Source of the DNA: Peronospora farinosa
Taxonomy: Eukaryota; Oomycota; Peronosporomycetes; Peronosporales; Peronosporaceae
Assembly (NCBI GenBank): GCA_947646735.1
Contig: CANTFK010000800.1
Location: 124,001 to 188,000, forward strand
Direction of reading: 5' to 3'
DNA: 64,000 nucleotides
A program made the position numbers and the translations under genes. How positions within the stretch are numbered: the stretch's first letter is position 1; each line of letters starts with the position of its first letter. The notes under the pieces were generated by a model. That model was not told where the DNA came from and made no database searches. It worked only from the letters and a program-made list of their open reading frames with translations. Shown here piece by piece: positions 12,200 through 64,000 of the stretch.

Positions 12200-12201
12200 G
12201 G

Positions 12202-21890: not shown

Positions 21891-21892
21891 AG

Positions 21893-22538: not shown

Positions 22539-22550
22539 CTCTCCCCCAAC
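22539..22550 (-). other. TE-C2 polypurine tract
   Basis: GTTGGGGGAGAG on the minus strand directly beside LTR2, identical to that of C1. Confidence 0.8.
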
Positions 22551-22647
22551 ATACTGACGTTCCCATAGATGTCATTCGACATCTTCCCTCTTTGAGGTAG
22601 TGCTTTAGCGAACGCTTAAATATCACAGTTTGCTCACGGCACATAAC

Positions 22648-30063: not shown

Positions 30064-30111
30064 CCTTACAGCGGGTCAGTCTTTTAGACTCAGGTGTAGA
30101 GTGCTACCAAG

Positions 30112-40236: not shown

Positions 40237-42740
40237 TCACTTTGGAAAAAACTTACCGGCCAGACGAGGGATCAGCGATCCCGGGTGATCTACAATCGAA
40301 GTTCGATACTGATTTCTCCACGGCTTGGCAGAGTCCAATATTGAGAGCGCGGTAGCCAGGTTAGGGATATTCTTCTTCTTACACTCCAGACCAGGATACC
40401 ATGGTCGCACTTCTGCGTACACTGGAAAGTGAAGGAAGTATGAATCCAACAAAATGTCCAGATCGCAGTGTCCTTTGACCATCCCTTGGAGAATAACGCG
40501 AAGAATTGTCTTCCAGCGGGGTCCAGATCTCGACCGACGCTGCTTGCGTTGCTGACAAAATTGCGCCAGCTCTGGATACTCCTTCCGAAGTTCGCGGGAG
40601 ATATACAGGAAGTGGGTTGCCTCCCACAAGGCTTGCCTATGGCGATCTTTATATTCGAGGTAAATGTCTGCCATATCTTTGAGCCAACCGGTCAGAGGGA
40701 AAGAGATGGGAGTAATCGGCCGACGAGTGACGTTCCACGGTTTCTGATCGTAAAGCGCAGTAACTTGTGCCGGGGTAATCATTCGTGGGATCCACTCAGA
40801 ATCAAGAAGAGATTTGGGATTGGCTTGAGGGGTGAAGATATACCCTTTCGGTCGGGACAAGTGTCGATAGAAGAACTCCACTCCCAATTCGGCAACACTG
40901 GTCAGACTGACCCGTCGGGCGGACCATGGAGCAACCTGAGTCGACGATCGGGGCTTTCGCTCACGATATCCAGGGATCCATGCATCACGTGATTTTTGGA
41001 GATCCGGCAGATCGGCGTATTGAGCGGGAGCGAGCAACGGGTTTATATCTTCACGAATGTCACTGGAAACGCTAATCTTCCCGTCCGAGTCGCTAGAAGG
41101 TTCGCCAAAAAGGTCGACCTTAGAAATCTTGGTCGTAAGGCTAGGGGGCGTATTAGGACTCGAGACTGGTGATTTTTTGGAGGGTGGGCTACCATTGTGA
41201 ATTATGATAGGGGACTGAGACGATCCGGTGTTGCCAGAGAGTTTCGTCGTGGTGGTGCGACGCCTCGCGGTTGAACGCGATCCGGATAGAGCAGCAAGTG
41301 TAGCGTCTCCGGGATCGGAAGACCATCCGTCATACTCAGAGTCAGGCGAAGGCGAGAGACACGTTTTGCGTTTCCCTTTAGCTTTCGACGGAACATTGGG
41401 TCGCGTTGTAATAATGGATCGCACCGACTTGGCAGATCGTTTTGGGGTACCAGATCGCGACGGAGTACCAGATCGCGCCAAAGTATTAGACTGTGTCGAG
41501 GTACCAAATCGCGCCGGAATTTCAGATCGCGCCGTAGTACCAGATCGCGCCAAAGTATTAGACTGTCCGAGTAACCTGATCGCGCCGGAATTTCAGATCG
41601 CGTCGAAGATCCAGATCGCGCCGGAGTACCAGATCGCGGTGGAGTACCAGATCGCGCTGAAGTACCAGATCCTTCTGAAGTATCAGATCGCGTCAGAATA
41701 CCAGATCGCGCTGGAATGCCAGATCTCTCCGAGGTCACAGATTGAGCAGAAGTACCGGAAGCGCTGCGGGGACATTTACAGGGGACGTCCAGAGTCGGTG
41801 AAGATGACGCACGTTTGCGATTGGGTGACGAGGGATTGGACAGCGCGAGAAGGCTAGTCGGAGAAGGAAGTAAGCCCATAGCCAATTCTGCCAGATGCGA
41901 ACGAAGTAAGTCTCGATCCTTGATGGCCAGATCGCGCTCCGCCTCTCGATCTGCAACTTCGGTACGAAGTCGACCCAAAGCTGCGTCGTTCCGAATACTC
42001 GCACTCAGGAGGCGATCATGATCAAGCTCAAGCGCGTTCAGCGTCTCTTGCAGTTGTTTTGCGGCTTGCTGAGCCTGATAGAGAGCTTTCTAGTACTTGG
42101 ACGCCTTGCTTTTCATGCGTCGAAAGTCAGCGGCCAAAGCACTGTCTGCCGTATTACGCTATGCGAGGATGGAGTCCAGTTGCTGTTGGAGGGACGCGAT
42201 CTGCTGACGGAATTTTCCTTCCAGAGTTCGCTAACGTTTGGCCGCCTCACGGCGGAATTTATCCTGCAGGCGATATTTCTCTGTATTGGCCCGAAAAAAG
42301 GCATTCTTCAGATCTGCGATCTCCTGAGACTGATCCGTTAGCTGATTCAGTTCTTCGTCGAGACCTTCGGCCATGTGGAGAGCGGCATCAAGTTGTTGAC
42401 GCAACTCTTCATCTCGACGCAAGAAGAATGTGCACACTCGAGACCACAACTCGTGATACGAATTCAGTTCCGTCTCCAGCTAATTTCCACGAAATTCCTG
42501 CTCCCGTAAGGCATTTTCCATGGAGTGATAACTTTCCACGATGGTATCTTGGGCTTCCAGGCGGTCATATAGTGAAGAAACCAACGAGATCGCGTTTTGA
42601 CGATCTGTGACGGGAGGAAGGATTATTCGGGTAGACGGGAGCAAGATACGCGATCCGGTAGAGGAACCCATCGTTGGATCGCGCGTAACGAGCACACCAG
42701 TTTGGGGGTGGCGATCGTTTTCGGGTGTAGATCTGGCCAT
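40237..42740 (-). pseudogene. TE-D antisense accessory gene (coiled coil, repeats, conserved C-terminal domain)
   Basis: Minus-strand gene from ATG 42740 to a stop at 40237-40239, about 830 codons, running against gag-pol and starting 86 bp from the 3' LTR. N-terminal half (42740-41880): coiled coil (DEELRQQLDAALHMAEGLDE, ALYQAQQAAKQLQETLNALE) in one frame with four TAG codons (42480, 42231, 42159, 42090). Middle (41447-41760): about 16 units of 18 bp encoding Arg-Ser-Gly-Thr-Pro-type repeats, with a frame change near 41575. C-terminal half (40237-41100): a domain shared with TE-E, including TPISFPLTGWLKDMADIYLE, RHRQALWEATHFL, GMVKGHCDLDILLDSYF and IPRLAGKFF. No known family recognised; no membrane segments. 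Basic stretches (KAKGKRK) could be nuclear signals. Confidence 0.75.
41447..41760. repeat. 18-bp coding minisatellite in the TE-D antisense gene
   Basis: About 16 units of GTACCAGATCGCGCCGGA and variants; most contain GATCGCG. In the antisense gene each unit adds six residues of the type S-G-T-P-A-R. Confidence 0.85.
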
Positions 42741-42825: not shown

Positions 42826-44159
42826 TGTGGCGAAGTGAAAGAGTGAATTTCGCCAAGTGTGATCGCATATTTTCGGTTAAGTCCGAAATGGCCAATATAA
42901 ATGAGTCGCGATCTCGTGGCCAATATTGATGAGTCGCGATCTCGCAGAAAAGTTTCAAGATGATGTCAAATGAGATGGAAAACAGTGAATGGTGGAGTTT
43001 GCAGTTCTATGTGGGTTAAATATGGCCTAGAACTATGCAATTGCGATCTCCAGTTTTTTTTCGATGGCGATCCGCGTGAGCGTGATCGCTAAGAAGGAGG
43101 ATTGGTACATCCAAGTATGTGAAAGACGGTCTGGTGTGGATCACGTTGCTATGAAATACTGGAATGAGCTGGAAATGACGCGTCATATAGATGGACCATC
43201 TCACATGACCCGAGAAACGGTGAAGAGGACAAGTCGTGATCCGGCGGATCGGTATCCGATACTATTTATTAGTACCGCGATCTGGTACTAATTATTTAGT
43301 ACCGCGATCCGATACTAATTATTTAGTACCGCGATCCGATACTAATTATTAGTACCGCGATCCGATACTAATTATTAGTACCGCGATCCGATACTAATTA
43401 TTAGTACCGCGATCCGATACTAAAATGGTATTAGACCCAAGCGAGGTAGCGATCCAGATCGCGGCGATATTGGAGTGGACCACATTACAAGATCTGATTT
43501 TTCCGAAAGGGCGATACGTGGCAATAGATCCTGAGCTACAGATAGTCAAGATCATAGGTTTTGGTATTTGATTGGTTAACATTAACAGAGTTCGATTTTA
43601 CTTCTAAGACACGCAAGCTTCTCTTCCGGGTGGGATAACTTTGGCCCCCCGACGACTCAAGAGCATCTGCTACGCCTAGACACAAGTGATATCCCTGGAT
43701 TGTTTGGCCAGGGATTACAAGAATTCTCAAAACAAACAACTCCCCCTGCGATTGGACGCAGCACAACAAGAAAAGGACAAGGTACAAGATCGCGAGACGG
43801 CTCAAGTGGTCAGAAGATCAAGTATATCAAGTATATCAAGTGGACCAAGTATCTACATTTTTGGACAAGGCGATCTCAAGAGAGATCAGGACGACTCAAA
43901 TAGAGCACCCCAAGAACAAATGCGATCGTGTGGGGAATTCCACTCGATCGCCCCCCCCCCCCCACCTATCCCTAACACAATCAAGTTCAACATCGACTCA
44001 AGTCTACCGAGAAGAGAGCAACCCGCCCTACCGACGGGTACACAAGGTGAGGAAGGCTATACACACGGAATCGGGGTACCCCCTCCGTTAGTCGGTCGTC
44101 TGGGCGCCAGTGGAGAGTTGGGATCGCATCAGCAATTTTGCGAATCCCACTCCACCACA
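42826..44159 (+). repeat. TE-D 3' LTR
   Basis: 1334 bp, TGTGGCGAAG...CTCCACCACA, followed by AAGG (44160-44163), matching the left flank: 4-bp target duplication. It has six 26-bp units against eight in the 5' LTR and a short duplicated GGCCAATAT...GAGTCGCGATCTC block near 42888-42945. The last about 265 bp, from 43889, differ strongly from the 5' LTR. GCAGGGGACGAT just before the LTR may be the polypurine tract. Confidence 0.92.
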
Positions 44160-44163
44160 AAGG

Positions 44164-45740
44164 TTCGCCGGTCCGTGGCACCTTTCTCAGCATTTGGCAT
44201 GCGGTTGCTTTCGATTCTGAATGGTTAAATTTGAATTTGGTTGCCGCCTCCGTAGAGTTATTACACGTCAACTTGATACGGCAATTAATTCGCCATTTTT
44301 GCTCAGATTTTTCATCGCCCTTTGAGTGGTTTATTCCTGCTTTAGTCTGTTTTAACGTGGCTTTTCGAGGTCAAGATTTTGGTCTTGACTTACTTTACGT
44401 ATACTTATCGCTTGAAGCACACTCTTCACGTTGGGATCGTTTCCCTCTTTATTGGCGAGCTTCTTTGGCTACTTGGCAATTAGATTCTTCCCCGCCTGCT
44501 GAATATCAATCCACTATTTGCGAAGCTGACATGGCCCATATAGATTAATACGCTTTTACGGTTCATCGGTGGAAAACGACCTCTTGCCACACTTCATCGT
44601 AAGGCATGTAATTTTCTGAGTCATCAAGGGGATGTCCGAATTTAGACTTTTTGCTGCTGTTTCGGATCTCTCCCAGATGAACACACACTTTGTGAGGCGC
44701 TTACTGGGTCCTCAATTAAGACTGGAAGTTCCATGACTTCGGTTGTTCGCTCTTTGGCTCCCCGATTGGCGATTCCGGCCCACTAAGGTATTTCGCTATT
44801 TACCCTCTTCCCCCTGACGATATTATTGCTGCGCTTCATATCTAGTTTGACGGGGTTGATATCTGTGATGTTCCTAACTCAATTATTCGTGGCTTACTTG
44901 AATCTTCGGCTCCCCCAGATTTACCACTGTCGCGTCTAGACGCTGATGGAGTGACATTACCGGACTCATTTTGGCGTACGGAACGCGCCTTCCAACATGA
45001 CACTCTTCCAGCTTCTAACGATCTTCTTTTTCGTCTCCAACATAATGAATTGGGCTTTCGCTGTAAAAATGGCTGGCTTACTCCGGATATTCACTGTGTC
45101 CATGGGTGTAATGCCCCTGAAATGGCTTACCATCTCTTCAGCGGATGTTTTCTGGCTAGTCGTCTTTGGCAATTATTTCTGCCACCTTTTCGCCGGATTT
45201 TTCAGACTTCGATTCTATTGGTTCATATTATTTTTCTTATAAGGGCTCTCTGTTTCGTCATCTTAATGCCATACTTATGGGGCGTTGCTACCTCTTCGGC
45301 TCATTCACATTGTTCAATGCTGAGTTTTTTGGACGCTTTGGGCTAATTGCAACGATGCCATTTACACTCCTCCCTCTCCTCCGTTCATGGGACTTTACCT
45401 TCGCTGTGTGTTATTAATCCGTCTACATTTTAAACGGTTATTCAAGACTCTGACCCACCCTCGCACAGCTGCGATTGCTCGCAACAAGTCTCAGCTTCTC
45501 GCTTTTCGTCTTGAATGGCACCTGGACTTCTTTGAAGATCCATTCACATTTTTCGCGGACGTTTTCTGACTAGTTCTTGATTTTTGTCACATGGTCGCCT
45601 TGGTAAATTTTATCCGACTTATTTGCTTGCGCCACTAAGTCAAATTTGTTTACTGGCTTTGTCACATGACTTCTACCTTCTTAAGGCCATCCTAGCGTAT
45701 CATAACGACGCCCGTACTCGCACAGACAATTGAACATCAT
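44164..45740 (+). pseudogene. LINE ORF2, right part
   Basis: Continues the LINE interrupted at 32271: VEG before the insertion joins SPVRGTFLSIWHAVAFDSEW after it. The C-terminal part contains LPDSFWRTERAFQHDTLPAS and the zinc-binding segment CVHGCNAPEMAYHLFSGC with SRLWQLF (about 45096-45180), the RVT-associated zinc domain found near the end of many LINE ORF2 proteins. Later readable pieces end at ARNKSQLLAFRLEWHLDFFE (about 45480-45540). Many stops; decayed. Confidence 0.8.
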
Positions 45741-47002: not shown

Positions 47003-47740
47003 TCCCCCCCTCCACCAAGAGAACTATTAGTGGCTCTTTAGTGACTATGGGAAGGGAGCACTTATTGTATTTCTTTTATTTCCACAAGCCTTCGAACATG
47101 ACAAAGGCACTACGCGTCACTGCCAAGGCAGCCAAGAACTCGGCTGCACGCCTCTGTGCAGCCGCTGTTGAGGCTTCACAGCCTCAATCTACATACACTA
47201 TGTAAGTCAACATCAGCCTGCAACGTCTGTTACATGTTCACGTGGCGAAGTGCCACGTAAAGATGCTGACACAAAGCTAATCGTTGAATGATCTGGTGAG
47301 TTGGATGATGCATCCGACTCAAAGCCATCTATTTCACTCCCGGCTTGCCCCGGGGTGATGCCTCACCTTTGGTCCCTACCAAAAGGGATCTTAATACATT
47401 GAGTAAATTCGTGTAACGTGAATTGTACGGGTCGTCTGATGAACCAGACGACTCGCCATCGAGACGAGTAAATCTTATTCGAATGTGGAAATATGACTCG
47501 ACTGGTTGTTGTTCGTGATGTCGGTGCTTCTACTGACATCACTGTACGTGGTGTCGGTATTTTGTCGAAACCACGCAGAAGTCTCTCGATTACAATGTAT
47601 TGCGTCCTGCTCCTGACCGGAAATTTTGTATTCTATCCACTCGTCTGATAGATCGTTGGTCTGGAATAACCAACGAACGATTTACGGTTGCGTTATTCCA
47701 TCCGTCATAGCTTCACGACCTTGACGCCAATGCGAAGAAC
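47003..47740 (+). pseudogene. TE-F internal end with antisense ORF start
   Basis: After the polypurine tract, the plus strand has an ATG at 47098, 95 bp from the LTR, opening a 35-codon frame (TKALRVTAKAAKNSAARLCA...) that ends at 47205. This mirrors the position of the TE-C antisense ATG (110 bp from the LTR). Beyond it no frame is long; the sequence has stops throughout. It is cut at 47740 by TE-E and resumes at 60125. Confidence 0.4.
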
Positions 47741-48713
47741 TGTGGTGAAGTGCCAAGGAAAATTGGAGTTTTAGGGAAATGGAACAGAGAGCAAAAGAAT
47801 TTCTGGTCACTTCCCCGAGGGAGTGACCACGACCCGGCCTCGCGGATTTACAACCACACACCAGGCCCGCCGTATTAAGAATATAAGTACCCAGACGTGC
47901 GGAGTCAGCACAGGCCCCAGGTCCCGGAAACAGGTTCCAGGGTCCCAGGGGTACAGGGGTACAGGGGCCCAGGGACCCAGGGACCCAGGGGCCCAATGTC
48001 CGAGGGTGCAGAATCGGTACACAGAATATCGAAGATTACAGAAAGTACAGGGTACCAAGGAGCCAGTCCTTCCTCCAAGAGTCGGCACGTGGCACTTTCC
48101 AGATCAAAGGGTTAGGGTTAGGCAAGAAAAGCATACAGAGAATAAGGTAAATAAACACACTCGAATTTGCATTACACGTGGCAGCTTTAAGCGCCCCTCC
48201 TAAGCTTCTCCGTCGCTTTACCTCTTCCTGGCGGGATACCCTTTGGCCCCCCGACGTCCAGCAGGTGTTAGGCAACTCAAGCAACGCAAGTTGAACCTCA
48301 GGATAGTTGGCCTGAGGTGTCAAGTAAGTGTCAACACTCTACGACCCGCTACAGGAAGCGGTTTCCCTACGGGGAAGAACACAAAGGGGTCCAAGGACCA
48401 AGAACAGTCAGCCACCAAAGGGGTACGCAGTACCAGGTGCATCGCTCTCGAATAAGTCGATTGAGCCCAGGAAACCCGGTCCCAAGTGAAGTATATCCAC
48501 TCAGGGACCACCAAGTCCAAGTCCTATACAAATACCAAGTCTTTAAGTCTTCTGCGTCTAACGAGGAGCAAGACCAGCCAAGCCAACGGGTACACAAGGT
48601 GAGACCCAAGGTTGACGCGACACGGTATCGGGGTACCCCCTCCGTAAGTCGGCAGTCCGGCGCTGTGTGTGTTTGTGGTTCTCTCACGTTGTTTGAGAAT
48701 CCACTCCACCACA
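47741..48713 (+). repeat. TE-E 5' LTR
   Basis: 973 bp, TGTGGTGAAG...CTCCACCACA, same length as the 3' LTR (59152-60124) with about 11 differences by eye (about 1%), so a fairly recent insertion. Flanked by GAAC (47737-47740). A G-rich tract lies at 47938-47992. Confidence 0.95.
47938..47992 (+). other. G-rich tract in TE-E LTR (potential G-quadruplex)
   Basis: GGGTCCCAGGGGTACAGGGG followed by more GGGG and GGG runs spaced by TACA or CCCA; at least six runs of three or more Gs. It is repeated in the 3' LTR near 59350-59404. Confidence 0.7.
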
Positions 48714-51192
48714 ATGGTGCGCGTGCCCAAATCTTTGGGAGACGCGGGATTTCACCGTGAGTCCCACGAAGAAGAAAAGACATCGGTCAAGATAGACCAA
48801 GGGGCGACCAAGACACTGGAAACCGTATCGCCAGTGATCAAGAAGGAAGAAGGATTGGAGGACCTGCAGAGCCCGGGGAGGAGCTCTGCTATTGAGGTCA
48901 AGGTGGAATATGAAGAAAAACCACCAAATCCTCCCCCTTATGTCTTCGTTGAAGAAGACAATATGGGCCATAATAAATATTATGGTCCAGGGGTCCCAAG
49001 TTTGACAGTGAAAGCTAAAAAGCAAGGGACTCCGAAGCAAGTCTCAACCTACCACGCAAGAGCCAAAGGTGCCCAAGAACAAGCAAAAGAAGCAGAAGGA
49101 TACCAAGTTGAAGACACCGAGAGGCGGAGACACGACGGACGAGTCGGGATAGAGCCAAGGCGTGGCTAGTAAGGACTGGACGGAAGAAGATTTGGAAGAA
49201 ACCTACCATCGAAAAAATTGAAGAAGTTTCTCCGAAAGGACCCGGTGATGAAGGCGCTCAAGGTCAAGCTTATGGACCAGGTCCACGGTCTGATAACGGC
49301 TCTTCCCACCACGACCACAGACCTGGAGGTCCTCAAGGCCGTAATGAATCTGCTACATGAAGCTGGGATGGATGCTGGGAACTTCACCGCTGAGACCCTC
49401 TTTGATTTCGGGTTCGAGACCTTGAAGAGGACCTTAGTGACCCTGCATGGTCACCTCAAAACGTTAGTGGGGGAGTTTCCCCCAAAGGAAGTACCCCGTC
49501 AAGATGGAGGAGTAGTGGATCCTGGTGTGGGCTCTCCTGCTGGGTCACTCGGTGAATCGTCACCAAGGTCTCAATACGAATCAGCCACCTCATCTATGAT
49601 GTCGGCCCTGATGGATACGGTGGACCGAATGCAACTGGGTCCATCTGGTGCAGCGCTATTAGAAGCACGAATTCGCGAAGCTGGCCATGTGGACACAGCA
49701 ACCCCATGGGTCCAGCGCCAAACACAGGAGGAGACGGAAGCCCGGTGCAAAGTGGAGCCAAGGTTGATGGGGACAAAAACGGATCAGGAAACAAAGACCG
49801 AGTCAGTTTCCCCTAGCGCACTCCAGTCGTACTTTGATAAGGCGATGACCAAGTTCCTTGGAGAGCAAGGCTCCACAAAAGTTGCTGTGGACAGGGGACA
49901 CACCACCAAGGGTCAAGGACCGGTTCCTCCCAGGTCCTCCCAGCGAATTGAACGCCTAGGACCACTAGGTGATATCCCTGATGTAGACATGGAATCTGTG
50001 GGATCAACCCATGATGAATACGACCCAGATGACTTGGCGTTCCCGATGACCTCAGCGCGAGCGACTGTGGCCGCGGCTACGGCAGGAGGACCCCCTACTG
50101 TTGCTGCACACATTAAGGTATCGGCCTCGTCAGATCTGAAGGAATTTAGCGGAAGGGACCACGATGAAGATCGTGCTAGAAGCTGGAGCACTAAGGTCTA
50201 GACGGCTTTCCTCCGAGACCAGGCACCAGACAGCGAGAAGTGTCTCATTTTTTGGGTCCCTGCTCACAGGTCCAGCTCAGAATTGGTATCGACAGCTAGG
50301 TCGAACGGTACGCGTCGATTGGAAACTGCTTCTGCGAGAGTTCCAAGCACAATTTTTCGGCTTGGGGGTGTCGGTGGCCCGACAATATTATCACGCCAGA
50401 AAGAGAACCGATGAGTCACCTTTGGAATATCCGTACCGTTTGAACGTGGCAGGGCTCAGGGCCAAGCTAGATATTAAGGGTTGGCCCCCCAGTGTAAAGC
50501 GAACACGTGGACCATTACGTGGAAACCTTGGATGATCAAGAATTAGCGGACCAGCTTACATTGCTCAGACATTCTGATGCAGACGACCTGGAGGAAGTCC
50601 TGCTGGCTCGTCAGAGAGCGAAGACGCGTCAAGGAAGGGTCTTGTTCGGGTCCAGCAAGTTTCGCCAGAAGGCCCCAACCACCCCAGACCACACCAAGAG
50701 TCAGCTGAGAAGACCCGTCCAAGTCATCCGAGCCACTTCTGAAAGTGAAAATGACCAAGGGTCCAGCTCCAGTGGGTCTGAGGGAGAAGGTGACCTCAGA
50801 AGAATTTATGCGGCGGCGAGTAAGCCTTACACTGGCAGGGCGAGGAACGCAGATGACCCCCGGGATCATCAGGACCCAGACCCAGACCGAAGTCGACGCA
50901 TGGCAGAGAGACCTGGACAAAAGGTGGTTCCAGGGACACCCGCGACAAAGTGTACCCATTTTGGGTCTAGGAAGCATGGGGATCTGACTGTTGGAAGCGA
51001 CTCATTTGCGAGTGCTGTGGAAGGAAAGGTCACCCAGCCGACCACTGCCTGTTTGTGTGTCGCGGTTGTGGCAAGGTTCATGACGTCGGCAAGTGCCCGA
51101 TGGAAGAGTTCTATAATCTGATTAGCCAGTGGTACAACCCGACCAAGCACGCGGGGCAACTGCCCGAGGCGGCGGAGAAGATGTTAAATTAA
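48714..51192 (+). pseudogene. gag: TE-E gag
   Basis: ATG at 48714 directly after the LTR (VRVPKSLGDAGFHRESHEEE). Charged N-terminus to a TAG/TAA pair at 49167-49172, then the same frame goes on (49218-50201: PVMKALKVKLMDQVHGLITA, VDRMQLGPSGAALLEARIRE). A TAG at 50199 stands where TE-D has Lys, and a shift leads to the capsid core (LTGPAQNWYRQLGRTVRVDW, RQYYHARKRTDESPLEYPYR). A further shift near 50505. In the zinc knuckles the first has lost a Cys (CTHFGSRKH), while CECCGRKGHPADHC and CRGCGKVHDVGKC read in another frame (about 51005-51105). Ends EAAEKMLN at 51192. Confidence 0.83.
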
Positions 51193-51223
51193 AACGCTCG
51201 CCAGGTTGGAATCTGGTACGAGC
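51183..51223 (+). promoter_or_regulatory. Probable -1 ribosomal frameshift signal, TE-E gag/pol
   Basis: Heptamer G_TTA_AAT (51183-51189) then the stop TAA; 6 nt later the stem GCTCGCCAG / CTGG-TA-CGAGC (51196-51204 with 51213-51223), identical to TE-D. The -1 frame continues LKRSPGWNLVRAERS into protease. Confidence 0.65.
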
Positions 51224-52131
51224 CGAGCGTTCTAATTGTTGCATTTATGCATTTGTGGAGAAACACCCCGTGGAGAAGGTCAATAAGTTGGATGAATTGA
51301 TTGGAAATACATCGGGCTTTTGCATTAATTCTGTTAATGCTGTGGCCAATGCGTGTGTACCTCATGTTAATTCCCGAGAAGAGACTATGATGACATTGGA
51401 CTTATTGCCGGGAGAGTCAAGAGGATACTGGAAACACCATGCCCCAGGAAAGTGGTTTAAGCAAGCCAAGGCCTCGGGGAAAATTAACAATATTCGTGCG
51501 AATCTACTGTTTGATTCTGGTGCCGAGATATCTATTTTGGATATCGCCTTTGCTCGTAAGGCAGGCTGCCAGATTAACACAAGCGAAAAACAAGAGTGCG
51601 TGGGCATTGGAGAAGCAGTTTACACCACGGAAGGGCGAACGAAGATCAAGATAACACTGAATAGTGTATTAGTATACTTGTTCAATGTGTGGGTCGGGTC
51701 CATGGCCGGCCAGGATGTGCTACTAGGAATGGACTTTATGCTGCCAGCTGGAATTCGTTTGGACATGGCGGATGGAACTATTTGCTTGCCAGACGAAGTT
51801 CGAATCCAGCTGACAGGTCGCAAGACCTTGTATAGTGGCCATATGTCTGAGGTCAAATTGGGCCAGTACGTGAATTTACCGGCAAAAAAATATGTCGAGG
51901 TTCCGCTGAAGAGGGTTACGTTGGACCAGTGGAAATTATGGATGACCCGTGGAGACAGATGATAACTACGATGACCCAAGGACATGGACATCGCCAATTC
52001 TTGAGGGTCACTAATGTGAGTGACAAGGACCTGATCCTACACGAGGATACCAAGCTGGGCATTTGGTTGGCTAAGGACCGGGGTACCCGGGCCCAAAGAT
52101 TCGTGTCAGTAGGTTCTAGGAGGTACGCTGA
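51193..52131 (+). pseudogene. TE-E aspartic protease
   Basis: Pol N-terminus in the -1 frame (51129-51962): IYAFVEKHPVEKVNKLDELI, LPGESRGYWKHHAPGKWFKQ, then LLFDSGAEISILDIAFARKA (catalytic Asp near 51511) and LLGMDFMLPAGIRLDMADG. A break near 51950 shifts to the frame 51929-52300 (GHGHRQFLRVTNVSDKDL, VGSRRYAEWKNLAYQATTDE), and another near 52200 to the RT frame. Confidence 0.83.
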
Positions 52132-53640
52132 ATGGAAAAATCTAGCCTACCAAGCAACCACCGACGAGGAGGATGCAGAGACCACTCAAGAAGAAGTGTA
52201 CCAAGGTCCGATAAACCTCAGTACACGACTCCACAGAAGATGTTGCTACGGACGAAGACCCAAGTGCCAGTGGCTAACTTGGTGCACGAGTCTGTTATGA
52301 GGGACCCTGAGTCATTACCATCAGATCAGGAGTCTGGAGGAGATTCCCTCGATAGAGGTCAACCAGCTGGAGCTAGCGTGGACACGGAAGTCTCATCTAA
52401 GGATAGGACCGATATGGAGAGGGTCCACCTAGAGGGGGGTCCACCGGTTATCAAGGCTGAAGTAGATACTTCCGATGACCAGGTCTGTGTTCACGAGAGT
52501 GGAAACTTATGTGCCGAGGATATCGACAAAAAATGGTCTGTTATCCGTGAGGTCACCCCATCCACGGACGAAGTTATGTTGGAAGACATCCAGATTCCAG
52601 ACCCCGGTGATACCCCAAAAGAGGAGGTAGACCGCCTCCGTCAGATTATATGGAGAAAACGACATTTGCTGATGGGAAAAGTTAACGCATTACCCCCGGC
52701 GGCTCGAGGAGCAGTGTGCGACATTGATGTTGGGAACGCACGGCCAATCGCCCAACGGGTACGGAAGGTGGCCCCTCAATTTAGGGAGAAGCTGGCAGAC
52801 CTGATAAAAGGCCTCTTGTCATCCAGGATAATCCAGCATTCCACCTCCCCATGGGCCAGTCCAATTGTAATCATTGTAAAGAATAATGGGGTGGATATAA
52901 GGCTGTGCATTGACTACCGGATGGTGAATGATTTACCGCGGCTTATGGTGTATCCTATGCCTCTCGTGAATGAGTTGCTGGAAGACCTAGATAAGGCTCT
53001 GTGGTACTGCTCACTGGATATGGCTAGCGGCTTTTGGGTGGTCAGTATGACCGAACGAGCCCGTTTAATCTCGGCTTTTGTAACCCCGATCGGACTTTTT
53101 GAGTGGAGACGAATGCCGTTTGGACTGAACAATGCGCCGCAGATCTATCAGCGGCTGTTGGATAATGCTTTATATGGGTTTCTTACGATTTCCTCCGAGC
53201 CGGGCTCTGACTAACCAGAGGACCTGTTCGAGGTGGGCCATCCAGAGGGAGACCTCAAGAAGTCTATATTAGGACGTAGGTCCTATATCGACGACATTTT
53301 GGTGACCTCGGAGTCATGGGATGACTCATGCGTGAAAGTGGAACGACTTTTGGAGGTGTGTGACAAGTGAAACTTATCGATCAGCGCGGTTAAGAGCTCA
53401 TGGGGCTGTCAAAAGGTAGATTACCTTGGCCACCAAGTGTCAGCGGAAGGGCTGGAGGCCCACCCTAAAGACCTTCAGTCCTTGGTGGACTTACCGTTAC
53501 CCACTACCCTGAAAGCTATGCAGTCGTTTCTCTGGAGTCTCAACTATTACAGTCGGTTCCTGGAGGACTACGCCATTTATGCATCCATCCTGTACGAACT
53601 AAGGGAAGTGTATTACCACGTATTACGAAATCGGATAAGC
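52132..53640 (+). pseudogene. pol: TE-E reverse transcriptase
   Basis: Acidic spacer, then RT: VCDIDVGNARPIAQRVRKVA (about 52718), IRLCIDYRMVNDLPRLMVYP (about 52900), WYCSLDMASGFWVV (motif A, about 53000), MPFGLNNAPQIYQRLLDNAL (motif B, about 53114), then an inserted stretch with a TAA at 53212 before GRRSYIDDILVT (motif C, about 53275-53310). A TGA at 53368 replaces an expected Trp. Connection: YLGHQVSAEGLEAHPKDLQS (about 53420). The same insertion before YIDD occurs in TE-D, so it is a family feature. Confidence 0.87.
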
Positions 53641-54080
53641 AGGACTGGGGACATACAGGAAGATGACCAGGAGGAGGACCGATGGGCCCGGGTGCAGGTG
53701 GCATTTGCTATGTTAAATAATAAGATCGCCACTGCCCCAATCCTCCGCCATTTTGATCCTGACCGGGAAGCTGTCATTATCGTCTATGCTAGCGAGTGGG
53801 CCATCTCGGCATCCCTGGTGCAGGAATATGAAGGGGTGTATATGCCGGTAACTTTCACGAGTCGGACTTTGAAGCCAAACGAGATCAACTATGGGCTGGT
53901 GGACAAGAAAGTGCTGGCGCTATTGCGAATACTAGACCTTTGCTACACGTCACTGGTCACCCGACCTATCAAGGTCTTGACCTGACACTCAACGCTGGCG
54001 TGGATAGTCCGGTCACCGGGTCTACAAGGTCGCCTGGGAAACTGGGCTGCACTCCTGTCTCAATGGACGTTAGAAGTGGT
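53641..54080 (+). pseudogene. TE-E first, degenerate RNase H
   Basis: VIIVYASEWAISASLVQEYE (about 53774-53833) has Tyr for the first catalytic Asp, DKKVLALLRILDL lacks the Glu, and after IKVLT a TGA at 53983 precedes HSTLAWIV where the third acid would lie. So none of the three acids is present. Same position and fold context as in TE-D. Confidence 0.75.
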
Positions 54081-54660
54081 TAAGTGCAAGAGGGGCGAAG
54101 ATGAAATACTGGGGACATTAGCGGCAAGCATTACGCCTCGCGAAAATGTGGACTCTATTCTATCTTCAATCGCCCCCAAGAGACATCCGCGCCAAGCTGT
54201 CTCGGTGGTTCCTCCCACAGTCGAACACGAGGAAGTCTTGTACGTGGTCAGTTTCGATGGGTCTGCACGAGTTAAGCGTGGGGGAGGAGCCTGCAGTGCT
54301 ATTGTGTGGCAACTCCCGGAATGGACGGTATTCGCCGCTGCTTCCCGGTATTTGACTGAAGCGACAGTTAATGAGGCAGAGTATGAAGGCCTATTGTTGG
54401 GCTTCTTTCTACTGAAGAACCTGAAGCGTAGACGTCTGGTAGTGTGTGGAGATTCTAACCTGGTCGTGCGACAGATGCGAGGAGAATTCGAGTGTAAGGC
54501 GCAGGGCCTGACAGTACGACGGGCGAAGGCCCTGGAAAAACTCAGGTCCTGGCCCGTTCACGAGTTTTTACACATGAAGCGCGAATGGAACCAAAGTGCA
54601 GACCGACTTGCTAACGTGGCGTTGCACCAGCAACAGGGTGTCGATATAGTGCCGGAAGAA
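54081..54660 (+). CDS. TE-E second RNase H
   Basis: Complete RNase H within the open frame 54076-55149: VVSFDGSARVKRGGGACSAI (Asp near 54255), ATVNEAEYEGLLLGFFLL (Glu near 54375), VVCGDSNLVVRQMRGEFECK (Asp near 54450), HMKREWNQSADRLANVAL (Asp near 54600). All catalytic positions are retained, making this the best preserved enzyme domain in the element; it is part of the polyprotein, not a separate gene. Confidence 0.8.
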
Positions 54661-56214
54661 GAGTTCAAGGACCTCGAAGCAATTAACCGTCTACCTGAGC
54701 GTTTAATACCCAAGGACCAGAGCCATGCATTGCGAGTTACAACTGTTACAAGATCCCGGGCCCTATCCAGAATACCGACGGAAGTCGTGCAAGAGGAAGT
54801 GGTGCAACGGATAAGGATCGAACGAATTGCAGCAGCCCAAGATGAAGAGATGTGGATACGTGATTTGAAGATTTACCTACGGGGAAACTGGAGTATTCTA
54901 TCGGCCGAGGTGGCATTTACGTGTAGAAAAATTGAGATGAACTACGCTTTGGATGATAACGATCTTCTTCTGTACTGCCCTTACCAGGGAACAGTAGACG
55001 AGGACCGTGATGGGTTGATTAGGCTAGTTATACCCGAAAGTCTACAACAAGATTTTCTACACCACTACCATACGAGTCTAGAAGGGGGACACCAGGGAAT
55101 TGGCCGCACATACCAACGGATTTGGAAACATTCTCATTGGAAAGGCTAATTCCGGAGTTTTCAGCGCTATGTTGGCACTTGCGTAGACTGCGAGACTGGC
55201 AAAGGTGGCCCCACCTTACGAGGGAGAAGTCAAGGGAACATTCAAGCTACCCATCCGTTCCAAGTTATCGCGATGGACCATATCCCATCTTTGCCCAAAT
55301 CGTTCAAGGGTAATACCGAGCTGTTGATTTGGGTGGACCTGTTTACGGGATATGTGATTGCCAAGTCTAGTTTGTCGAGGTCGGCCCAAACTGTGGCAGA
55401 AGGTTACGAAGAGTGCGTATTCTGTCGGTTTGGGGCCAGTGAGGCGATCCGTCACGACAGAGAACCCAGTTTCATGTCAGATTTCTTTCGCGCTTTCAAC
55501 CGCATAATTGGGCAGAAACAGCGGGCGACTATGGCGTATCGACAACAGGCCAATGGCACAGCAGAGAGAATGGTACAGACCATTACACGGTCCATCAAAA
55601 TGTATGTGTCAGAGGTAGATCAGAAGGACTGGGATGCCTATGCAGAAAGGCTCACTTTCGCGTTGAATACGGCCCAGGACCGGATCCGAAAGGAAACGCC
55701 ATTTTTCTTGGTACATGGCTGGGATGCCTGAAGTACTCTAGAAGCCAACATACCGTTAGGCAGCACGAAGCGGCGTGAATGTGAGCTCCGTCGATGGCGA
55801 TATAGCGTACAACGTCAGTATCGCAGAGCGAGAGAACAAGCCAACGAATTATTACGAGCTGCGATGGAAAGTCGGGCCCAGGCCCACAATGGGGAGGTGG
55901 TTGATGGTCATATTGAGGTGGATTCCCAAGTCTGGTTATACTTGGACCGGGTCAAGGAGGGGTATGCTCGAAAGCTGGCACATCTATGGCATGGGCCATT
56001 CCGAGTGAGAGAACTGGTGGGTGACTATGCTGTTCGTTTAGATATCAGTGGAACAGACTACCGTATATACCCGTTGGTACACGTTTCAAAATTGAAGCTG
56101 GTCCGGCAATATCCGGATAGACCAGATACGGTGTCGATGGTAGACGAAGCGAACCGGGTGGATTTTGATGAAGCTCTATTGCCAGAAGACAGTTGGGTCC
56201 CGGAACTGGAAGAG
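54661..56214 (+). pseudogene. TE-E integrase
   Basis: Same frame. Zinc region HHYHTSLEGGHQGIGRTYQR (about 55060-55120), a TAA at 55147, then RYVGTCVDCETGKGG. Catalytic Asp in VIAMDHIPSLPKSF (about 55267-55300), second Asp in AIRHDREPSFMSDFF (about 55447) and Glu in NGTAERMVQTI (about 55554); the spacing between the last two is exactly 35 residues (D,D-35-E). A TGA at 55729 (likely Arg CGA originally) precedes the C-terminal part: VDSQVWLYLDRVKEGYARKL, LWHGPFRVRELVGDYAVRLD, YPLVHVSKLKLVRQY. Inactive only through two stops. Confidence 0.87.
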
Positions 56215-56429
56215 GACGAATACGAAGTGGAAAAAATCTAGACAGACGTATGGGAAGGAAAACGCGGTACGGACGGATCCAGCGTGAATACCTGGTACAA
56301 TGGAAAGGATATCCTGACCCGTCATGGGTGGATGAGGTGGACCTCAACTGCGGGGGATTACTTAGGGACTATGAGCGCAGGCAGGCTACTCGGAACCGAT
56401 TCGAGGCAATGCAGAGTCATGAAGAGTAG
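56215..56429 (+). pseudogene. TE-E chromodomain
   Basis: YEVEKI ends the integrase frame at 56241; with a one-base shift the chromodomain continues: LDRRMGRKTRYGRIQREYLV, QWKGYPDPSWVDEVDLNCGG, LLRDYERRQATRNRFEAMQS, stop at 56427-56429. The EYLVQWKGYPDPSW core is the canonical chromodomain strand-turn. Likely targets integration to modified chromatin. Confidence 0.75.
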
Positions 56430-56712
56430 TGGGAAGAGTTCATCTTGGGAAGGCCAAGATGATGCAAGAAGGAGGCGGTATTTGTCATACATTTACAAGG
56501 GGGTCAAGTTATTATATTCGAGAGTGCGACAGCACAAAAGAGATTGCGAAGTATTGTGAAAGGCCCAAAGTACCAGGGCACCGGGGTGCCGAGGACCAGG
56601 GGCCCGGGGGTACAGGGGCCCGGGGGTACAGGGGCCCAGGGATACAGGCCAAAGAGAAGGAACGTGAAGTTAGGGAAAAGCGTTGGAGCATAAAGCTAGC
56701 TGACTAAACATT
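56430..56712. other. TE-E spacer between convergent genes, G-rich
   Basis: Contains 56575-56660, where GGGGTGCC, GGGGCCCGGGGGTACAGGGG and GGGGTACAGGGG-type units recur, very similar to the G-rich tract of the LTR. No credible ORF. It lies at the meeting point of pol and the antisense gene. Confidence 0.6.
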
Positions 56713-59053
56713 TTATGCATCGGTGGCCTGGCAAAATTTGCCAGAGAAACGAGGGATCTGGAAGGCGGGGTGTTCCTGAATGTTCTTGCGATAGAACACG
56801 CGCCAGGGGGCAGTGTCGTCTGCGGTCTGCAAAGCCCTCAACAAGTCCAACTGGGGATCCTCCGTGGTGACGATTGGGTACCAGACGGTCAGCTGACGGG
56901 TCGGAATCATGGGCTGGAAGTAGGGGTCAAGAAGAATATCGAGGTCACAGTGACCGGCCTTCATCCCTTCCAGGACCTTCTCAAGTACGTCCATCCAAGC
57001 CCTCACCGCCTTGGCTCGCCGTTTCTTCCTCGCATTGGACAGTCGAGAGGCGTAGTGGCTCTTTGTACGGAGTTCGGAGAAAAGAGGAAGTCGGTGTCGG
57101 TCTTCCCATAGACTCTGGCGTGACGCCTCGACGTACGTATCATGATGCTTCACGAGGTCACTGAACCAGCCGAGCACTGGAAAAGAAATAGGGGTCACGG
57201 TCACGACCCCCTGGGCCCAAGGACATGAGTCCATCAGAAGCTGAAGTTGAGAGTCCTTCATGAGGGCTTCGCTCCAGATTGGGGGGCTTCGGGTCTTCTG
57301 GTCTTCAGAAGCACCCACCCAAGACAGTGGAAGCGATACCTTGGACCAAAGATCCTCTGGCGTCAGCTGGGTGATAACGAGGGCCCCTACCTGGGAAATC
57401 GACCAGGGGGCAACATCTTCCGCGGCGAACGTGCTGGGTGTCGCATTACCAGGAAGGGAAGAGCCGTGGATGTTACGGTCGGGGAAATCATCATGGGTGG
57501 GAATCTGGCTGGCCGGACCCTCAGGTGTTGGTACCGGATCCTCGCGGCTGGGACCCTCAGATGTGGGTGCAGGATCCTCGCTGCTGAGACTCCTGCCACC
57601 GGGACCCTCAGATGCGGGTGCAGGATCCTCGCTGCTGGAATCCTTGGAGGGGGGTGCTGGACCCTTGCCGCTGGAACCGTTGGGTGGTGGTGCGGGACCC
57701 TTGCGGCTCGAACCCTTGGATGGTGGTGCGGGCCCCTTGCCGCGGGAACCCTTGGAGGATGGTGCTGGACCTTTGCCGCTGGAACCCTTGGATGGTGGTG
57801 CGGAACCCTTGCCGCTGGAACCCTTGGGTGGTACTGGTCCCTTGCCGCTGGAACCCTTGGGTGGTGGTGCGGTACCCTTGCTGGCGGGGCCCTTGCGGCG
57901 GGAGCTTTTGGCTGGTGGCTTACGCTTAGCATGTCTAGACTCGTCACTCTCAGTTTCAGAGTCTGGTCCAAACATCCAAGAACTCGTCGGAGTACGTCGT
58001 TCGAGCCTTCTTGTTCCTTGACGCTCGAGACGCTGCGTGGGAGGTGCGAGGGGATGGGGACCTTGGAGGTGGAGTGGGAACCTTGGACTTGGCCTTAGTT
58101 GATAGGTCTATGACCTCGGGGCCGACCTCTGAAGTAGAGGGTACAGGGCCGGAGCGACGACTGGAAGCCCGCGACCTGGCCATGGCGGCGAACATCGAGT
58201 CGTCACTACTGCTATCCTCGGCATCAGACGACCCCGGGGCACGATTGGCTTTCCGCTTCTTCGGCTTAAGGGGCGACCGAGCCTTGGATGAAGGCGAACG
58301 TGACCTTTTTGTCGTTCTGAAACTTCGGCCCTTGGACGTGGCTGGAGTCGATTTTGCCGCCGTGCCCCGAGCAACCGTTAGCTGCTTCTGCAGCTGGTTT
58401 TGTTCCCGTAGGAGGGCCTTTACGCGGCTCTTGTAGTTGGTCATCTCCTTCTGGAGTACCAGCACTTGTTTGGACAGTTCTTGAGGACTGTGAAGTGCGT
58501 CCAACTTGGACTCCAGCGACCAAATCTCAGCCGAAGAATTTTCGACAGCCTCGTTGTACTGGTCCTTCCAGTACTTGATCTGGGATCGGGATTCTTCCAC
58601 TTCCCGAAAATTGTCCACCCGTTGGGCGAGTGCATCCCGGTACTCGGCGATGGCCAACTGGTCCACTTCATGCTCGTGGACCAGATTCCGGACCCAAGAC
58701 TGTATCCGGGGCGCATGGGTCACCTCGAATTCCGTGAGGTCGTCTACGCGACGCTGTAATTCCGTGGTCCGGCGATGGTCCATCTGGTAGGCCCGTTGGA
58801 GGACCCTGTGTTCCTCAGCGAGGGTCTCCATGGATTGGGCCCGTTCCACCGCGACACGTAAAACTTCCCAAGCTTGAGAGACCTCCAGATGATTGGGGGA
58901 CTCCCCAATAAGGTCCACGGTCGGGGCGACCTCGTCAGGGTCAGGTCCAGGAAGTGCGGGAAAAGACCAACGGTCAGGAGCTTGGGACCCGGTGGGAAGA
59001 TTACGAGAAGTCACTAACGGATACAAGACGTGTGAGTTGGTGAACGCAACCAC
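56713..59053 (-). CDS. TE-E antisense accessory gene (coiled coil, repeats, conserved C-terminal domain)
   Basis: Minus strand, starting about 100 bp from the 3' LTR. The first frame (57956-59053, 365 codons; it opens without an obvious ATG, so the start is uncertain) has a coiled coil (LAEEHRVLQRAYQMDHRRTT, KEMTNYKSRVKALLREQNQL) and then basic, Ser-rich sequence (KPKKRKANR). The second (56713-57975, 420 codons, own ATG at 57975, overlapping by 20 bp) begins FGPDSETESDESRHAKRKPP, runs through about nine 12-residue GSSGKGPAPPSK repeats (57600-57900) and ends in the domain shared with TE-D: TPISFPVLGWFSDLVKHHDT, SRQSLWEDRHRLP, GMKAGHCDLDILLDPYF, IPRFSGKFC. Either one gene with a frameshift or two overlapping genes. 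No nonsense codon in 2.3 kb. Function unknown; no membrane or signal sequence. Confidence 0.78.
57600..57900. repeat. 36-bp coding minisatellite in the TE-E antisense gene
   Basis: About nine units of the type CCGCTGGAACCCTTGG + (A/G)TGGTGGTGCGG; each encodes 12 residues (GSSGKGPAPPSK consensus) on the minus strand. Confidence 0.85.
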
Positions 59054-59151
59054 CCAAACGACGTAGGGTCACTTATTGTTAATTCGAAGAGTTTCGACAA
59101 GGGTGCACGTGGTCTTACCGCAGTTCGAAAGACCAGCGCGCAGGGGACAGC

Positions 59152-60124
59152 TGTGGTGAAGTGCCAGGGAAAGCTGGAGTTTTAGGGAAATGGAACAGAG
59201 AGCAAAAGAATTTCTGGTCACTTCCCCGAGGGAGTGACCACGACCCGGCCTCGCGGATTTACAACCACACACCAGGCCCGCCGTATTAAGAATATAAGTA
59301 CCCAGACGTGCGGAGTCAGCACAGGCCCCAGGTCCCGGAAACAGGTTCCAGGGTCCCAGGGGTACAGGGGTACAGGGGCCCAGGGACCCAGGGACCCAGG
59401 GGCCCAATGTCCGAGGGTGCAGAATCGGTACACAGAATATCGAAGATTACAGAAAGTACAGGGTACCAAGGAGCCAGTCCTTCCTCCAAGAGTCGGCACG
59501 TGGCACTATCTAGATCAAAGGGTTAAGGTTAGGCAAGAAAAGCATACAGAGAATAAGGTAAATAAACACACTCGAATTTGCATTACACGTGGCAGCTTTA
59601 AGCGCCCCTCCTAAGCTTCTCCGTCGCTTTACCTCTTCCTGGCGGGATACCCTTTGGCCCCCCGACGTCCAGCAGGTGTTAGACGGCTCAAGCAACGCAA
59701 GTTGAACCTCAGGATAGTTGGCCTGAGGTGTCAAGTAAGTGTCAACACTCTACGACCCGCTACAGGAAGCGGTTTCCCTACGGGGAAGAACACAAAGGGG
59801 TCCAAGGACCAAGAACAGTCAGCCACCAAAGGGGTACGCAGTACCAGGTGCATCGCTCTCGACTAAGTCGATTGAGCCCAGGAAACCCGGTCCCAAGTGA
59901 AGTATATCCACTCGGGGACCACCAAGTCCAAGTCCTATACAAATACCAAGTCTTTAAGTCTTCTGCGTCTAACGAGGAGCAAGACCAGCCAAGCCAACGG
60001 GTACACAAGGTGAGACCCAAGGTTGACGCGACACGGTATCGGGGTACCCCCTCCGTAAGTCGGCAGTCCGGCGCTGTGTGTGTTTGTGGTTCTCTCACGT
60101 TGTTTGAGAATCCACTCCACCACA
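59152..60124 (+). repeat. TE-E 3' LTR
   Basis: 973 bp, followed by GAAC (60125-60128), matching 47737-47740: 4-bp target duplication. GCGCAGGGGACAGC just before it is a probable polypurine tract, similar to that of TE-D. Confidence 0.95.
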
Positions 60125-60918: not shown

Positions 60919-61260
60919 TGTAATGGGCTACATTACACATATAGTATTAACAAAAATAAACAATTACATATGTAGGCAGGTGCTGGGCCCGAATAGCGGG
61001 CACAGCGTGGTAATTTATTATTGGTTTATTATTGGGCCTAAAGTCCCCAATATGGACCAATGATAAATCAACCTGAAATTGTGCGGTTCCCGAAAGGCGG
61101 GAACACTGTCGTATTTATTACGACTAAAATCTTCGTAATTAGTACGAATTAAAACCAAAATAAAAATCAGAGTTAAATTTACTTAATACCTAATACTTGG
61201 GCTTGAGTCTTCCTCAAGCGCGCGTGTAAGCTAGTGACGGTACGTTCTAGCCCCGTTACA
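60919..61260 (+). repeat. TE-B2 5' LTR
   Basis: 342 bp, TGTAATGGGC...CCCCGTTACA; matches 12202-12547 in reverse complement. PBS TGGTAGCACTTAG begins at 61263. Confidence 0.9.
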
Positions 61261-61262
61261 CC

Positions 61263-61275
61263 TGGTAGCACTTAG
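61263..61275 (+). other. TE-B2 primer binding site
   Basis: TGGTAGCACTTAG, two bases after the LTR; as in TE-A, TE-B1 and TE-C. Confidence 0.75.
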
Positions 61276-61286
61276 TAGTCGTTCCT

Positions 61287-62332
<1,046 letters not shown>

Positions 62333-62409
62333 GTGCAGGGCGCCCTATTGGTTGGAACGGAGGTCCGGGTCCCCCGGTGGCAGCCCGACCTTCCAGTCCT
62401 CCTGCGCTA

Positions 62410-62853
62410 CGCGCACGGTTAAATGCCACCACTACGAGTGGTGATTCACGTCTGATTTTTGTCAGTTTACATGTCGCCGGCGTCCGGCGACCTCTGCGAG
62501 CACTCCTGGACTCAGGAGCAACATACAATATTTTCGTGAATCTTGTTTATCGATTCTGACTACCAGCATTCATGTCCGAGAGGGACCTGACCAAGTCGTC
62601 GTCAAGTTGGCTGACGGGAAACCACACCGCGTATCGCGGCGCAAAGTGTCGTTGCCGTATACGTTTGATGGTTTTCGCAGTAATGATAAATTTTTTGGTG
62701 ATCGCAATGAATTATGCATTCGATTGCATACTGGGCATGCCATGGTTGGCACGTTATAAGCCCCAGATCGACTGGTTAGCCAGATCAGTGAGACGTCGAC
62801 GCAAGTTCGATGTCAGTGAAGTGTTTTACCCATATCTTGGTGTCTCCAAGTGA
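62410..62853 (+). pseudogene. TE-B2 aspartic protease
   Basis: RRPLRALLDSGATYNIFVNL (catalytic Asp-Ser-Gly near 62507-62518) is intact. A stop at 62557 and a frame change follow; HVREGPDQVVVKLADGKPHR and LPYTFDGFRSNDKF read in one frame, and past a T6 run near 62690 LVIAMNYAFDCILGMPWLAR and YKPQIDWLARSV read in another. The same breaks occur in TE-B1. Confidence 0.75.
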
Positions 62854-62989
62854 CTGGCCGAACGTCACAATTGTGGATCGTGATTCTACGACGCTGGCGG
62901 TGCACAGACCGAGCGATGTCCCTCTCTGCACTGCTTGTGCTGTTCTTTTTCGAGACAAAAGTTACAGTGACTCCTCGCTCCACAGCGAG

Positions 62990-63480
62990 GAGAACTATGA
63001 GGACGACGAGGTCAACAGGGGTTCCCGCGCGTCATTAATGCGGTCGAACAGGGGTTCCCGCACGTGAATGCAGTGGTTGAACCGGGGTTCCCATCTGCAC
63101 CTATTGTGCTTGAGCAGGGGCTCCCACAAAGGCATTGTGACGACGAGCAAGATCTCGCCAGCGAGTGTGACGTGGACGGACAGGAGTCCCCACGCGAGAG
63201 CATGATGGTCGAACCGGGGTTCCCATCATCACCCACTGTGGTCGAACCGAGGTTCCACATGGGCATATTGTGGTCGAGCAGGGGCTCCCACACGAGTACA
63301 ACGTGGACGGACAGGAGTCCCCACGCGAGAGCATGATGGTCGAACCGGGGTTCCCATCATCACCCACTGTGGTCGAACCGAGGTTCCCACATGGGCATAC
63401 TGTGGTTGAGCAGGGGCTCCCACACGGGTTTACGGCGGCCGAGCAGGAGCTCCCGCATCAAGTGTCGACGGTCGAGTTTG
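62990..63480 (+). repeat. Coding minisatellite in the TE-B2 protease-RT linker
   Basis: Units with GAGCAGGGGCTCCCACA or GAACCGGGGTTCCCATC encode VEQGLP / VEPGFP. A 131-bp higher-order unit is duplicated (63171-63301 and 63302-63432); the first copy lacks one C in GGTTCCCACA, causing a frameshift. Confidence 0.82.
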
Positions 63481-64000
63481 GGGTACTCCCGTCCAGTGTT
63501 TCCGGCATCTTAAATGACGACATCCAGTGCCTAGAGGGGGGTGATGGTTTATCACCTGACTGCGGTTCGCCAGCTTCGAGTAGTGACTCGAAGCACGATG
63601 GGGACAACAGCACCGAGAATTTAGCGTTGGAATGTGTCCACGCTATCGTGTACGTGGAAGGAAGTCCACAAAGGCGCCAATATGTCGAGGTCGAGAGTCC
63701 TCCTCGTCATGCGTCGTCCATTAAAAGTCTTCCAGGGCTTTCCTGGAAGCATTTCCTACGTGACCTTAAGGGAGGCACTGTGGAACAAGTGTGTCTAATC
63801 ACCAACGAGGTGGTTATCGTAGCAAACGAGGAGCATATGGCGCGTCCTCGAAGCGCTGAGCCGAAGTCTGCGCATGAAGAAAGGTTTGCATCACAGTCAT
63901 GGGAGGCCCTGCGAGATTCTGGTAACCCCGTCTACGACATTGCTCGTGAATATGCAGACGTGTTCCCGGACAAGATCCCGGCTGAACTTCCTGCGGACCG
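63481..64000 (+). pseudogene. pol: TE-B2 pol, start of reverse transcriptase region (cut by window end)
   Basis: LECVHAIVYVEGSPQRRQYV, SLPGLSWKHFLRDLKGGTVE, QVCLITNEVVIVANEEHM, EERFASQSWEALRDSGNPVY and IAREYADVFPDKIPAELPAD match the RT entry of TE-A and TE-B1. The frame appears open to the window end. RT catalytic motifs lie beyond 64000. Confidence 0.8.

Follow-up and report, generated by a model that had tools for sequence, protein, structure and literature searches.

A protein-coding antisense gene behind pol in Chronos-like Gypsy elements of the oomycete Peronospora farinosa

Two elements and their antisense genes

The window analysed here, a stretch of 64,000 nucleotides from a Peronospora farinosa contig, holds two Gypsy elements, TE-E and TE-D, whose LTRs were mapped. 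TE-E is bounded by a 5′ LTR at nt 47741–48713 and a 3′ LTR at nt 59152–60124, both in plus orientation. The 3′ LTR starts with TGTGG (its repeat match covers nt 59151–60124), and the two LTRs are 98.9% identical across 974 bp (nt 47740–48713 against 59151–60124). Between them the plus strand encodes an aspartic protease (nt 51126–51962), RT (nt 52132–53214), RNase H (nt 53371–53985), a second RNase H (RVT_3) with the integrase zinc domain (nt 53986–55149), integrase (nt 55150–56241) and a chromodomain (nt 56193–56429; PF00385, 27.8 bits against a cut-off of 25.1). Despite the high LTR identity, gag-pol of TE-E is fragmented across many frames.

In TE-D, pieces of protease, RT, RNase H and second RNase H lie at nt 36119–39800 of the plus strand, and integrase and chromodomain are missing. 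The 3′ LTR region, nt 42826–44164 (plus), is bounded by its repeat with nt 32272–33627 (88.6%). In both elements a PF17919/PF17917 RNase H is followed by PF13456 (RVT_3), the second RNase H being typed by the RVT_3 profile only. Relatives 98–99% identical to TE-D in RNase H, for example on C63, C13 and C132, have the integrase adjoining it. Because these relatives still carry integrase, TE-D is a deletion copy that lost the domain, and a D family without integrase by design is ruled out. By domain content, dual RNase H in both and a chromodomain in TE-E, the two elements are classed as Ty3/Gypsy elements of the Chronos kind. Chronos, according to passages of its description, has dual RNase H, the second of archaeal type, plus a chromodomain and occurs in Peronosporales and Pythiales (Ustyantsev 2017, PMC5348765). 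The named relatives of the antisense protein also come from Peronosporales. The middle of the window is flanked by a large inverted pair of segments (nt 9784–12441 and 61021–63874; 81–99% identity by stretch), which gives weak, below-cut-off matches to the Ty3 capsid.

The sequence-only reading had placed a gene opposite gag-pol in both elements, and minus-strand frames were indeed found in the slot between pol and the 3′ LTR of each. In TE-E the gene occupies two stop-to-stop frames. The first (nt 57956–59068, minus, 370 residues) encodes the N-terminus, a coiled coil and the onset of a basic and repetitive region; the second (nt 56713–58107, minus, 464 residues, stop at nt 56713) encodes the repeat region and the C-terminal domain. 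Compared with the stop-free relative L007, with 89.6% and 77.2% identity, the two frames are halves of one gene, containing no stop and a single frame break at about nt 57968–58053. The earlier statement that the TE-E gene has no nonsense codon thus holds to the letter, yet the frame break means that it is not one intact gene. The predicted coiled coil corresponds to nt 58397–58891 (minus), the 36-bp coding repeats of 12 residues in the disordered region to nt 57594–57895 (minus), and the conserved C-terminal domain, delimited by alignment, to nt 56716–57444 (minus).

The TE-D gene runs from an ATG at nt 42740 to a stop at nt 40237 on the minus strand, in frames comprising nt 40237–41592 and further pieces up to the ATG. 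It is interrupted by at least four stops, one at nt 42480 and three more within nt 41568–42452, and by a frame break near nt 41566. Its C-terminal domain covers nt 40240–41043 (minus, 268 residues). As the earlier reading had noted, the C-terminal domains of both elements contain TPISFP..GW, GHCDLDILLD.YF, PWR and IPR..GKF.

The two types differ in their start. The ATG of TE-D is ordinary and is found again in the D-type relatives L040 and L041, whereas the E-type copies read have no in-frame ATG before that at nt 58831. The 3′ LTR of TE-E begins about 320 bp from this ATG and about 100 bp from nt 59053, where the earlier reading had put the 5′ end of the gene. For the 71 codons that precede the E-type ATG, dN/dS is 0.47–0.57, with upper limits below 1 in six of six pairs, which suggests that E-type translation starts upstream of nt 58831. 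The interval from nt 58832 to about 59045 (minus), some 70 codons, looks selected, and an intron, or a start codon other than AUG, may lie there.

Distribution in the genome and selection on the protein

The P. farinosa assembly was searched with three queries, the C-terminal parts of TE-E, TE-D and a third subfamily, L022. The antisense protein is encoded at no fewer than 269 merged places. Among the matches listed, 103 places have an integrase within 4 kb, and in all 103 the gene is convergent (tail to tail) with pol; for the other 166 no integrase within that distance is among those matches. Seen from the side of pol, 103 of the 150 integrases among the matches listed are accompanied by an antisense gene and 47 are without one among those matches. 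Of the 22 integrases (among the matches listed) embedded in open frames of 1600 residues or longer, 19 are accompanied by the gene. As to the remaining three, one no longer has the C-terminal domain, one retains only a 5′ piece, and for one none was found. Because these three long-pol copies lack a complete antisense gene, it appears that not every copy needs the gene in cis. L039 (G000:C253:139820-143600) has a long pol frame and a tandem-repeat stretch in place of the antisense gene.

The second RNase H gave the same orientation: for the first 214 places, 87 are convergent, one is not and 126 have none among the matches listed. The single non-convergent place is probably due to a neighbouring element. 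Twenty loci of 9.5–10 kb, taken in list order from 88 without selection for quality and matching the TE-E query in frame, all carry the gene beyond the 3′ end of integrase, on the strand opposite to pol.

More than 40 places in the host genome encode the protein in stop-free frames of 600–973 residues, which exceeds what chance would leave open. Measured from stop to stop, these frames are 742–754 residues in the E type, 752–798 in a type 50% identical to it, 761–771 in the L022 type and 905–973 in the D type, all among the matches listed. At least 13 D-type copies, nearly identical to one another, have both a pol frame of 1200 residues or more and an antisense frame of no less than 905. The gene is common to subfamilies with 33–57% identity. 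Across 15 loci, with L001 and L029 left out as repeats of the window copies, the distances of antisense protein and integrase rise together (Spearman 0.92, 0 of 2000 permutations), a correlation inflated by near-identical rows. The presence of the gene in other family members, which the earlier reading had asked to be checked, is borne out by these counts, and the antisense gene is element-borne and inherited with pol.

Selection was measured on the C-terminal domain by the Nei-Gojobori method, with codons containing stops skipped in all counts. The comparison of TE-E with TE-D proposed earlier is not computable because synonymous sites are saturated, but among closer relatives the antisense frame stays below 1, which does not refute the gene. 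The deeper comparisons give 0.13–0.20. TE-D against L033, L036 and L030 yields 0.136, 0.136 and 0.130 (95% limits about 0.07–0.23), L022 against L027 yields 0.128, and L004 against L014, L020 and L015 yields 0.192, 0.174 and 0.201. Shallow comparisons lie at 0.36–0.63. The values for TE-E against L004, L007, L008, L003, L024 and L012 are 0.40, 0.42, 0.37, 0.48, 0.36 and 0.63, with upper limits of 0.79–0.92. Two pairs have limits that include neutrality, TE-D with L031 (0.463, 0.22–1.12) and L014 with L020 (0.529, 0.26–1.11). In both pairs for which all six frames were compared, TE-D/L033 and L004/L014, the antisense frame has the lowest dN/dS. The coil is also constrained, at 0.28–0.36 in six pairs. 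These ratios show purifying selection on the gene as a protein.

Integrase at like depth has dN/dS of 0.031 (TE-E against L014) and 0.026 (TE-E against L020). By this measure the antisense protein is constrained, yet evolves several times faster than integrase. A shallow integrase pair gives 0.43 (0.19–1.11), similar to the shallow antisense pairs. We regard it as nearly certain that the antisense frame is a selected, element-encoded protein gene.

Predicted protein, its expression and possible roles

The predicted protein consists of a long coiled coil, a disordered basic and serine-proline region and a conserved, all-helical C-terminal domain. An AlphaFold2 model of 220 residues of the coil region contains helices at residues 55–188 and 190–219; together with the heptad signal in the coil of relatives, it indicates a nearly continuous helix of about 165 residues in TE-E. 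The structure of the C-terminal domain was modelled from TE-D, where it is confidently predicted as a helical fold (mean pLDDT 91.1, pTM 0.88). Neither a Pfam match nor a PDB match by sequence was obtained for this domain, and a search by fold, which covered solved and viral models, yielded nothing beyond unrelated chains with low scores (AcrA, ferritin, ABC transporters), so no function is claimed from the fold. Searches of viral and prokaryote contigs produced pattern matches, none of which was confirmed as a relative. Three relatives examined have a pI of 8.0–10.1 and basic clusters, and their highest 19-residue Kyte-Doolittle mean is 1.22, in agreement with the earlier view that the protein has no membrane segment. 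This, with the position on the strand opposite pol, rules out an env or env-like ORF, and the earlier denial of an env gene was right.

In TE-E about 100 bp separate the 3′ LTR from the start of the conserved coding stretch; in TE-D the LTR region and the ATG are 86 bp apart. Because coding starts so close to the LTR, the antisense promoter would lie in the LTR, unless it sits within the short gap. An oomycete initiator motif was rejected as promoter evidence; 8 occurrences were found in the window against 11.25 expected, no excess over chance.

The best explanation of the whole, with a probability of about one half, is that the gene encodes an accessory regulator that acts in trans, is probably nuclear and is expressed from the 3′ LTR. 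An antisense promoter inside the 3′ LTR would produce the mRNA of the accessory gene. The protein would oligomerise via its coiled coil and enter the nucleus via its basic clusters, and the helical domain may bind nucleic acid, or integrase or chromatin, and so act in trans on the element. The outcome might be control or protection of element expression, as has been proposed for the TRP28 proteins of plant Retand and is known for HBZ among retroviral antisense proteins. The regulatory role is the weakest step, one for which we would give somewhat less than even odds. HTLV HBZ and its kin are retroviral antisense proteins acting in trans. Their gene likewise lies near the 3′ end and is read from the 3′ LTR side, a likeness in layout for which no homology is claimed. 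A trans-acting nuclear protein of this type may serve as a working model for the oomycete gene; HBZ is also cited in PMC11963269.

Repeat arrays in the LTRs bear on a narrower role, in which the protein would bind the LTR and gap arrays of its own family and counter RNAi or heterochromatin, much as VANC acts against silencing in plants. A G-rich motif of 8 bp is arrayed in both LTRs of TE-E (nt 47937–47995 and 59348–59406) and again behind the antisense gene, in the gap towards pol (nt 56597–56648). Within 47.5–61 kb of the window the motif is dense (at least 4 per 250 bp) solely in the two LTR bins and this gap. D-type LTRs contain near-palindromic arrays of 26–27 bp units in variable copy number, in TE-D at nt 32671–32892 and 43254–43423 (26 bp) and in relatives at L040:1192-1288 and L041:860-1010. 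Such arrays are candidate targets of the protein. Small RNAs of both orientations on Gypsy elements of Phytophthora infestans, described in a portion of PMC3522703, would also suit an anti-silencing factor, and the fast divergence of the protein beside a slow integrase fits family-specific targets. On the other side, in a profile of 13 other loci, not every one of which spans an LTR, seven have a dense bin and six have none, while the gap bin occurs only in L024 and L016; moreover, LTR arrays may serve host factors. We consider this role unlikely. The basic clusters, the coil and the co-inheritance with integrase can alternatively be read as those of a protein taken up into the virus-like particle or pre-integration complex, where it would assist entry into the nucleus or, together with the chromodomain integrase, the choice of target. 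Antisense coding uncouples its dosage from that of Gag-Pol, however, no fold match that would point to such a function was obtained, and copies with a long pol frame but without the gene exist, so that a particle or import factor seems distinctly unlikely.

Selection can favour a moderate copy number, and some retrotransposons are limited by their antisense products. An element-encoded brake on copies of its own family is nonetheless improbable, as the 13 or more nearly identical D-type copies with long pol and antisense frames indicate that carriers of the gene have multiplied. The antisense orientation and the lack of likeness to known Gypsy proteins might instead betray a captured host gene, or a nested foreign element, travelling as a passenger. 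The identical position and orientation at all 103 places with integrase (among the matches listed), the sharing of the gene by diverged subfamilies and the outcome of three protein searches, in which no match, judged as a protein alone, is plainly a host gene, make a passenger very improbable; an ancient capture may still be the origin of the gene. Finally, a transcript of the gene would be able to base-pair with the genomic RNA, and the both-strand small RNAs of oomycete Gypsy elements (PMC3522703, same portion) would fit dsRNA formation, with the open frame incidental. A purely non-coding role is contradicted by the selection on amino acids (dN/dS 0.13–0.20) and by stop-free frames of up to 973 residues, and we give it almost no credence, although an RNA effect may exist in addition to the protein.

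A second antisense gene and comparison with known systems

The window also contains a second Gypsy family. Its pol is read from the minus strand and includes RNase H and the integrase zinc domain. The 8.2-kb units of this family form a head-to-tail tandem at nt 13620–30591 with three LTR-like copies, nt 14200–21800 and 22423–30019 being 99.7% identical. An antisense frame lies at nt 14508–15308 (plus), between pol and the LTR-like repeat. A less damaged relative, L042:314-1645 (plus), has a frame of 443 codons whose end overlaps the 3′ end of pol; by eye, a chromodomain-like end is seen in L042. With small secondary match pieces left out (including 3 of 126 rows in one listing), this second gene was found at no fewer than 144 places, convergent at all 82 with a pol match within 4 kb, while 62 are without pol among the matches listed. 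Compared with L042 it has dN/dS of 0.256 (0.16–0.40), the lowest of the six frames. It has no Pfam match, and hhalign gives a probability of 0.1% against the Chronos antisense protein, no relation being shown. Because the second gene is convergent and selected and scores so low against the Chronos protein, one genome appears, from sequence comparison, to have this slot occupied in two of its Gypsy families by antisense genes without relation to each other.

Plants are where antisense genes of Gypsy elements have mainly been described, with roles that are putative. Tat/Retand elements have an antisense gene in the slot between pol and the 3′ LTR (passages of PMC11963269 and PMC7264820), and Tat shares dual RNase H with Chronos (passages of PMC5348765 and PMC10508981). 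As excerpted from PMC11963269, TRP28, with predicted DNA binding, is present in 97% of clusters of Retand antisense ORFs, and about half have tandem repeats in the region; SMC-like stretches occur in some (also PMC7264820, in part). The Grande GENE23 protein is nuclear and antisense-transcribed, and fungal Boty has an antisense additional ORF in a non-plant element, a likeness by description only (both in sections of PMC7264820). The oomycete protein is set apart from the Retand one, since no match to PF04195 (TRP28) was seen in the TE-E frames at E 1 or, for 21 relatives at E 0.1, in the 25 families listed out of 43. Identity with TRP28 was rejected on these searches, and the caution of the sequence-only reading, which had claimed no homology to plant antisense ORFs, was well placed. 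Unlike plant TRP28, the conserved domain of the oomycete protein is C-terminal, with a helical model for which no fold match was obtained.

The dual RNase H of Tat and Chronos is ascribed to independent evolution in the text available from PMC10508981, while passages of PMC5348765 favour convergence but leave some room for a common origin. Beside dual RNase H, the antisense gene would add another likeness between Tat and Chronos. No antisense, reverse-strand or additional ORF is mentioned in the main text of PMC5348765 or listed in its Figure 1 legend. Nor was an antisense gene in oomycete elements reported in the open-licence PMC full text searched; the earlier remark that no function had been described stands. 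New here is the oomycete Chronos antisense gene, with a domain whose fold found no match in these searches; the antisense slot of plant elements was already known.

Two unrelated selected genes in one genome, one of them in a family that has dual RNase H in common with plant Tat, make the slot a recurrent design open to testing, and raise the question of what the elements bearing it share. One may go further and suppose that selected antisense protein genes arose in this slot independently several times: TRP28 in plant Tat, the gene for a coiled coil and helical domain in Chronos, and a third, unrelated one in the second Gypsy family. Together they would make up a general class of trans-acting factors driven by LTRs, and the helical domain, new in this case, would recognise the LTR arrays of its own family. 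We put this forward tentatively, as a proposal that may well be wrong.

Named homologs in the three protein searches are from Phytophthora and Peronospora only. The results suggest that a set of "hypothetical proteins" in genomes of these two genera may be retrotransposon accessory proteins, which matters for gene counts there. One of the searches gave 41 database proteins, three of which, P0011, P0012 and P0031, were left out of the alignment as fusions or for want of a C-terminal end. P0011, of 586 residues, joins RT/RNase H and the antisense C-terminal domain in one frame, and may be a chimera, a gene-model error or a real rearrangement.
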